40,935 nt of DNA from a virus: IMG/VR virus record IMGVR_UViG_3300042147_000001, positions 1-40,935 of that record. One strand, 5' to 3'. The stretch's first letter is position 1. Every line of letters begins with the position of its first letter. Shown one piece after another: positions 37,865 to 38,419 of the stretch. The translations under genes and the position numbers were made by a program. Below the pieces are notes generated by a model. That model searched no databases and was not told where the DNA came from. It saw only the letters and a program-made list of their open reading frames with translations.

Positions 37865-38419
37865 ATGAATCGTTCCCTGCTGCAAGGCGGGTTTGATCTT
37901 TGCGAGCACCTCATAGGACACGGCATCGGCGCGATCATCGCTGGTGGTTGTGCCCGTGACTTGTTCTTTGGGGTCGAACCAAAAGACATCGACATCATCT
38001 GCGCGGGCACCGACCCGGAGACTGTTTCCAGAGCGCTCGATGAAGGTGGCTTCACTTACGAGAAGTTCCCGAAGTACCACACAGGGTCTGATTCGGATCG
38101 CCTTCAGGGCGTCTGGAAGATCTCTGGTAGTGAGATCGACGTGATCCTTTACGAGACCGATTGTGTCTCTGAGGCGATCCAGAAGTTCGACTACAACCTG
38201 AACCAGTTTGCAATCACTGGCATTCAACGGGGGATTGAAGGGGCATCTATTCGCTTCATGGGTGCTGACTCTTGGACCAATCTGGTGCGCCTGCGTGAAG
38301 ACGCTCGTGGTTCCCGTGCGGAGAAGATGGAAGCCAAGTGGCTCGATCTGATCCACAAGGCACCAATGCGCGATGGCCGATACGTTGATCAGATCGAGGT
38401 GCGAGATGTCGTCAACTGA
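37865..38419 (+). CDS. nucleotidyltransferase of the polymerase-beta / CCA-adding type
   Basis: A 184-residue protein with the nucleotidyltransferase head signature [20 protein letters not shown], equivalent to GG-x-x-RD-x-x-x-G-x-x-x-x-DxD of tRNA CCA-adding enzymes and poly(A) polymerases; a third acidic residue is in EIDVIL (~residue 95). The RNA-binding C-terminal domains of full CCA enzymes are absent, so it is a catalytic head only. TGGAGG at 37855-37860 precedes ATG 37865. No counterpart exists in T7. It overlaps the primase gene by 14 bases. It may modify host RNA, a protein or a small molecule; substrate unknown. Confidence 0.85.

Follow-up and report, generated by a model that had tools for sequence, protein, structure and literature searches.

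The locus at 37865-38419 raises the question of what a phage nucleotidyltransferase without RNA-binding domains might act on, and whether its position against the gene for the primase/helicase bears on that function. The window, by which we mean the whole stretch of 40,935 nucleotides that was analyzed, is from a T7-like Pseudomonas phage and appears to be cut within the DNA polymerase gene, whose start lies at 40930 (40930-40935) and whose remainder lies at 1-2012; the record is therefore probably a circularised whole-genome assembly. The open reading frame described in the initial annotation was found exactly where it had been placed, and the features of the locus are as follows.

37782..37800, plus strand: promoter for the phage RNA polymerase, TAAAAACCCTCACTGTTGC, immediately 5' of the nucleotidyltransferase gene
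37855..37859, plus strand: Shine-Dalgarno GGAGG of the nucleotidyltransferase gene, read from the sequence, five bases 5' of the start
37865..38419, plus strand: nucleotidyltransferase ORF, predicted head-only class II (CCA/poly(A) polymerase-type), 184 aa, ATG to TGA
38396..38399, plus strand: GAGG, the gene 4 Shine-Dalgarno, within the last nucleotidyltransferase codons
38406..40118, plus strand: gene 4, T7-type DNA primase/helicase, start ATG 38406
38406..38419, plus strand: 14-nt overlap of the nucleotidyltransferase stop with the gene 4 start, ATGTCGTCAACTGA

We judge this ORF to be a real gene based on its match to PHROG 1614 "nucleotidyltransferase" (E=2.9e-57, residues 6-178), the 206 phage records that match the window protein in tblastn searches (E<=1e-3), and dN/dS values of 0.08-0.21 relative to ten relatives (Nei-Gojobori). 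The ORF is under strong purifying selection. Orthologs in gh-1, phiPsa17, shl2 and others have 88-92% identity to the window protein, and searches with three different family members as queries retrieved 206, 311, and 253 records. All of the 38 diverse relatives that we aligned, most of which are 24-60% identical to the window protein, also match PHROG 1614, and by these comparisons the window protein is an ordinary member of the family with no essential difference from the others. The family was described in 2020 as the putative "tRNA nucleotidyltransferase" of the Autographiviridae (PMC7693777), with the same size and invariant motifs, and the CCA-adding function given there is an annotation. 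The gene, its family and its putative function are thus already in databases and the literature and are not a new observation; no experimental study of this family was found among the papers searched. What is new here is the conserved overlap with gene 4 and the repeated adjacency to replisome genes, which are modest additions.

The catalytic site was located by aligning the relatives and by structure modeling, and its elements are listed below.

37943..37960, plus strand: GGCARD, first half of motif A (residues 27-32), with G27, G28, and R31 invariant
37985..37993, plus strand: DID, predicted catalytic carboxylates D41 and D43, invariant in 38/38
38138..38140, plus strand: D92, predicted third carboxylate, at the start of strand 91-96, invariant in 38/38
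38186..38206, plus strand: FDYNLNQ, altered motif B, aligned to cellular RRDFTIN in the profile-profile comparison
38312..38353, plus strand: helix 150-163, corresponding by alignment and model to the first helix of the class II neck; its R151 is invariant

The residues invariant in all 38 relatives are G27, G28, R31, D41, D43, D92, F108, D109, N111, N113, Q114, and R151, so that loss of the catalytic carboxylates, which the initial annotation had named as grounds for refutation, is not seen. In the structure model (pLDDT 94, pTM 0.90) strand 42-47 begins at the DxD formed by D41 and D43, which lie, together with D92, in the positions expected for the three carboxylates of the fold. The best PDB matches of the model are all class II CCA/PAP enzymes, covering residues 1-164 with Z about 9-12, whereas other nucleotidyltransferases scored 7.8 and below, and profile-profile comparison matched the protein to cellular PcnB/Cca (97%, E 1e-10). 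The model and the profile-profile match together confirm the predicted head of CCA/poly(A)-polymerase type and assign it to class II. The enzyme is probably active. Its likeness to PolyA_pol (PF01743) in motif A is real, although the score of 21.5 bits is under the Pfam gathering score of 23. One side observation concerns this motif: in Pseudomonas phage Stalingrad (L026:3853-4480) a 55-nt tandem duplication in motif A splits the gene into two ORFs, annotated as "tRNA nucleotidyltransferase" and "tRNA maturase", and a distinct "tRNA maturase" seems to be an artefact, produced by this frameshift. The 484-aa "polyA polymerase head" protein of phage Bjorn was considered as a fusion that might hint at function and was set aside, having neither the FDxNxNQ motif of the family nor a Pfam match.

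Comparison with the cellular enzymes shows what the phage protein has kept and what it has lost. With the class II CCA-adding enzymes (6qy6, 1miv, and human mitochondrial 4x4w) it shares the head fold, motif A (GGxxRDxxxGxxPKDxD), the three-carboxylate site and the first neck helix, and the structural Z to 6qy6 is 11.3 (143 residues, 2.7 A). Unlike them, it lacks the rest of the neck and also the body and tail, the RNA-binding domains whose absence had been recognized from the sequence, leaving about 20 residues after helix 150-163. In place of RRDFTIN it has xFDxNxNQ, in which both arginines are replaced and the D and N are kept, and its conserved R144, D146, and R151 have a spacing unlike that of motif D, EDPxRxLR, which holds the nucleotide-selecting template EDxxR. 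The highest structural Z, 11.9, was to the poly(A) polymerase I of E. coli (PcnB; 3aql), yet bacterial enzymes of this type have roughly 400-490 residues against 184, together with RNA-binding domains and a basic C-terminus that the phage protein is without; the match to NCBIfam pcnB (TIGR01942) is weak, with 28.2 bits over residues 11-56 only and a cut-off of 305.65. The phage family is also strongly acidic, with a net negative charge in 38/38 members (median -9, pI 4.9), as compared to a pI of 6.4-9.4 for three full-length cellular enzymes, the corresponding parts of which are less acidic (charge -5 to +2). Given the negative charge and the missing RNA-binding domains, repair of tRNA by the enzyme unaided is less straightforward than one would gather from the published annotations. 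The MenT tRNA nucleotidyltransferase toxins have a nucleotidyltransferase fold and a similar size in common with the phage protein, but are structurally further from it than the class II enzymes (MenT1, Z 6.8), and no antitoxin gene was seen beside the phage gene, whose neighbors are lysozyme (3.5) and the primase/helicase.

The 14-base overlap with gene 4 that had been reported is exact. An alternative in-frame ATG for gene 4 is present at 38373; the start is most plausibly 38406, since a Shine-Dalgarno sequence is present there and the position is conserved in relatives. The promoter consensus that we used, that for gh-1 and phiPsa17 (PMC4517105), has 11 matches in the genome versus 0.04 expected. 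As one promoter lies directly 5' of the nucleotidyltransferase gene, this gene would head a transcription unit running into the primase/helicase. The common promoter and the overlap support co-transcription and translational coupling of the two genes, and to that extent the claim that both proteins are made together is upheld, their joint production being only partly shown. RNA structure at the junction is nothing unusual (z = -0.02).

The overlap of 14 nt recurs in 28 distinct loci, some of them with only about 40-45% protein identity. Among the other Autographiviridae genera that we sampled, about ten in all, the gene is mostly beside another replisome gene (helicase, primase, or DNA polymerase) and often overlaps it. 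The nucleotidyltransferase gene overlaps that of DNA polymerase by 4 or 20 nt in PP81 and LIMEzero, overlaps the polymerase 3' end in Drulisvirus, is just upstream of polymerase in PP99, Bonnellvirus, and Aeromonas phage MF, and is one gene away from it in Maculvirus. It overlaps the helicase in Phimunavirus and the primase/helicase in Aarhusvirus (4 nt), and is near the primase in Foturvirus and Krylovirinae. Friunavirus is one of the exceptions, with the gene between those for the exonuclease and endonuclease VII (PMC8092837). This survey is descriptive: replication genes crowd the region and the genera are not independent.

Several further features of this region were observed. An HNH endonuclease gene is inserted between the nucleotidyltransferase gene and gene 4 in some close relatives (L001, L005, L023, and L035), where it also overlaps the nucleotidyltransferase end. 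In the window, an HNH-endonuclease-like ORF (36332-36934) overlaps two genes, that for the ssDNA-binding protein at its 3' end and that for endonuclease I in its 5' part; this is a different HNH site from that of T7 3.8. The ssDNA-binding protein (...YDNVDF, 36442-36471) and the gene 4 protein (...GQSPDF, 40089-40118) both end in Asp-Phe tails; similar tails of T7 proteins are known to contact DNA polymerase. Many relatives of the nucleotidyltransferase end in PVGGxDGxF/Y, which recalls the Phe-terminated acidic tails of T7 gp2.5 and gp4. We rejected this as a docking tail: the window protein is without it, and nucleotide constraint explains most of it, because the PVGG codons give the gene 4 Shine-Dalgarno GGTGG and the overlap of 14 nt takes in the final codons.

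A T7-type gene 4 is present in 1226 phage records, and its distribution over host genera differs from that of the nucleotidyltransferase. Record counts for gene 4 and the nucleotidyltransferase, respectively, are 137 and 140 for Pseudomonas, 17 and 16 for Dickeya, 268 and 15 for Escherichia, and 427 and 3 for Klebsiella, while Salmonella has 91 gene 4 records and is not among the genera listed for the nucleotidyltransferase; the nucleotidyltransferase counts are query-dependent and are lower bounds, and not all carriers are T7-like. More distant queries retrieved 37 Klebsiella and 56 Pectobacterium records. Among IMG/VR contigs with a gene 4 at least 65% identical to ours, all 24 have the nucleotidyltransferase gene upstream of it. 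On these counts the gene is near-universal in Pseudomonas T7-like phages and apparently fixed in that lineage. As claimed initially, it is absent from T7, where HNH gene 3.8 occupies the position; in enteric relatives of T7 the corresponding space is mostly 67-240 nt long or, as in T7, holds gene 3.8. The nucleotidyltransferase was reported in 37/46 Pectobacterium Autographiviridae versus 60 of over 500 others (PMC7693777), and is absent from some Friunavirus genomes (PMC8092837). When 84,980 bacterial and archaeal genomes were scanned, only six loci emerged: five are clearly in T7-like phage or prophage DNA and the sixth is in an Ekhidna MAG with a primase homolog nearby. We therefore rejected host-encoded homologs and regard the family, from these searches, as essentially confined to phages. 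T7-like replication genes also occur in Pseudomonas contigs of 120-262 kb (L108, L111, and L112; P. rubra, P. fontis, and Pseudomonas sp. SID14000), suggesting integrated T7-like prophages.

What, then, might this enzyme do? The reading that we favor, at a probability of about 0.5, is that it is an active RNA 3'-end nucleotidyltransferase aided in substrate binding, with tRNA the likeliest RNA. The head-only enzyme of class II lineage would add NMP to an RNA 3' end, with the RNA presented by a partner protein, or by the phage replication machinery encoded alongside, instead of by domains of its own. It would come into play as middle transcription and DNA replication begin, and could keep the 3' ends of host tRNAs usable or modify them for the phage; tRNA acceptor ends are our tentative choice as the most likely substrate, one that we hold with considerable doubt. 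Cellular members of the class II fold act on RNA 3' ends, and the structural Z values, the profile-profile match, the invariant residues and the low dN/dS are consistent with this reading, as are the promoter, the overlap with gene 4 and the replisome-gene neighbors across genera. Against it are the loss of a body and tail to hold tRNA, the replaced motif B arginines, and the acidity of every member. In addition, no tRNA genes were found in the phage genome, hosts already have CCA enzymes, and some nucleotidyltransferases of similar size act on proteins or small molecules.

This last point leads to an alternative that we consider unlikely, in which a metabolite or a protein, of host or phage, receives the NMP, as with other minimal nucleotidyltransferases. 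The initial annotation had likewise suggested that the enzyme might tag a host factor or alter a nucleotide signal. The size, acidity and missing RNA-binding domains would fit, two of the 38 members weakly match an aminoglycoside adenylyltransferase model (best 0.0024), and there is lower-ranked structural likeness to LnuA and TM1012, but class II RNA enzymes consistently and clearly outrank these in both structure and sequence comparisons. The same missing domains and acidity weigh against counter-defense, in which, as the initial annotation proposed, the enzyme would restore CCA tails cut by host immune nucleases or toxins. That CCA cleavage is a real immune strategy is evident from Cas12a3, which cuts the 3' CCA tails of tRNAs (PMC12851939). 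Presence of the gene also tracks host lineage, being near-universal in Pseudomonas T7-like phages and common in those of Dickeya and Pectobacterium, whereas few phages of Klebsiella, Escherichia, and Salmonella have it (PMC7693777 and our counts), and its absence from some Friunavirus phages indicates that it is dispensable there (PMC8092837). No CCA-cutting defense is known to have been shown in these hosts, though, and no link of the gene to a toxin or defense system was found, either among its neighbors or among the PADLOC defense models searched. Its presence in all 24 Pseudomonas-lineage contigs is fixed rather than patchy, unlike many counter-defense genes, and we think a counter-defense role improbable.

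The overlap with, or adjacency to, primase/helicase, helicase or DNA polymerase in most genera examined would fit a role at the replisome, where the substrates would be RNA primers, or tRNA 3' ends that can serve T7-type primase/polymerase as primers, and the enzyme would so tune the initiation of DNA synthesis. That tRNA primes T7 replication and that gp5.5 masks this is reportedly what Zhu et al. 2012 found, by the title of their paper (reference 25 in PMC5569994). The transferase would be recruited via the primase/helicase or DNA polymerase and would extend or edit primers or tRNA acceptor ends, such that phage DNA synthesis could start from these or be protected from them; we regard this recruitment as a long shot. 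The whole region is replication-related, so the adjacency may merely reflect shared timing, and T7 manages without the gene. We consider such a replisome role very unlikely. Nor is the enzyme a simple substitute for gp5.5, a candidate that we rejected since Dickeya phage Dagda and Pectobacterium phage PP81 have both. The gp5.5 gene occurs in 564 records, mostly from enteric hosts; the genera listed do not include Pseudomonas, the phages of which may lack it simply because their hosts have other nucleoid proteins.

The enzyme is encoded by several hundred sequenced phages, and its name in databases is tRNA nucleotidyltransferase despite the absent tRNA-binding domains. If it does modify the 3' ends of tRNAs or primers, one could learn from it how a catalytic head of minimal size locates its RNA, and why Pseudomonas and soft-rot phages have retained the gene while enteric relatives of T7 live without it.
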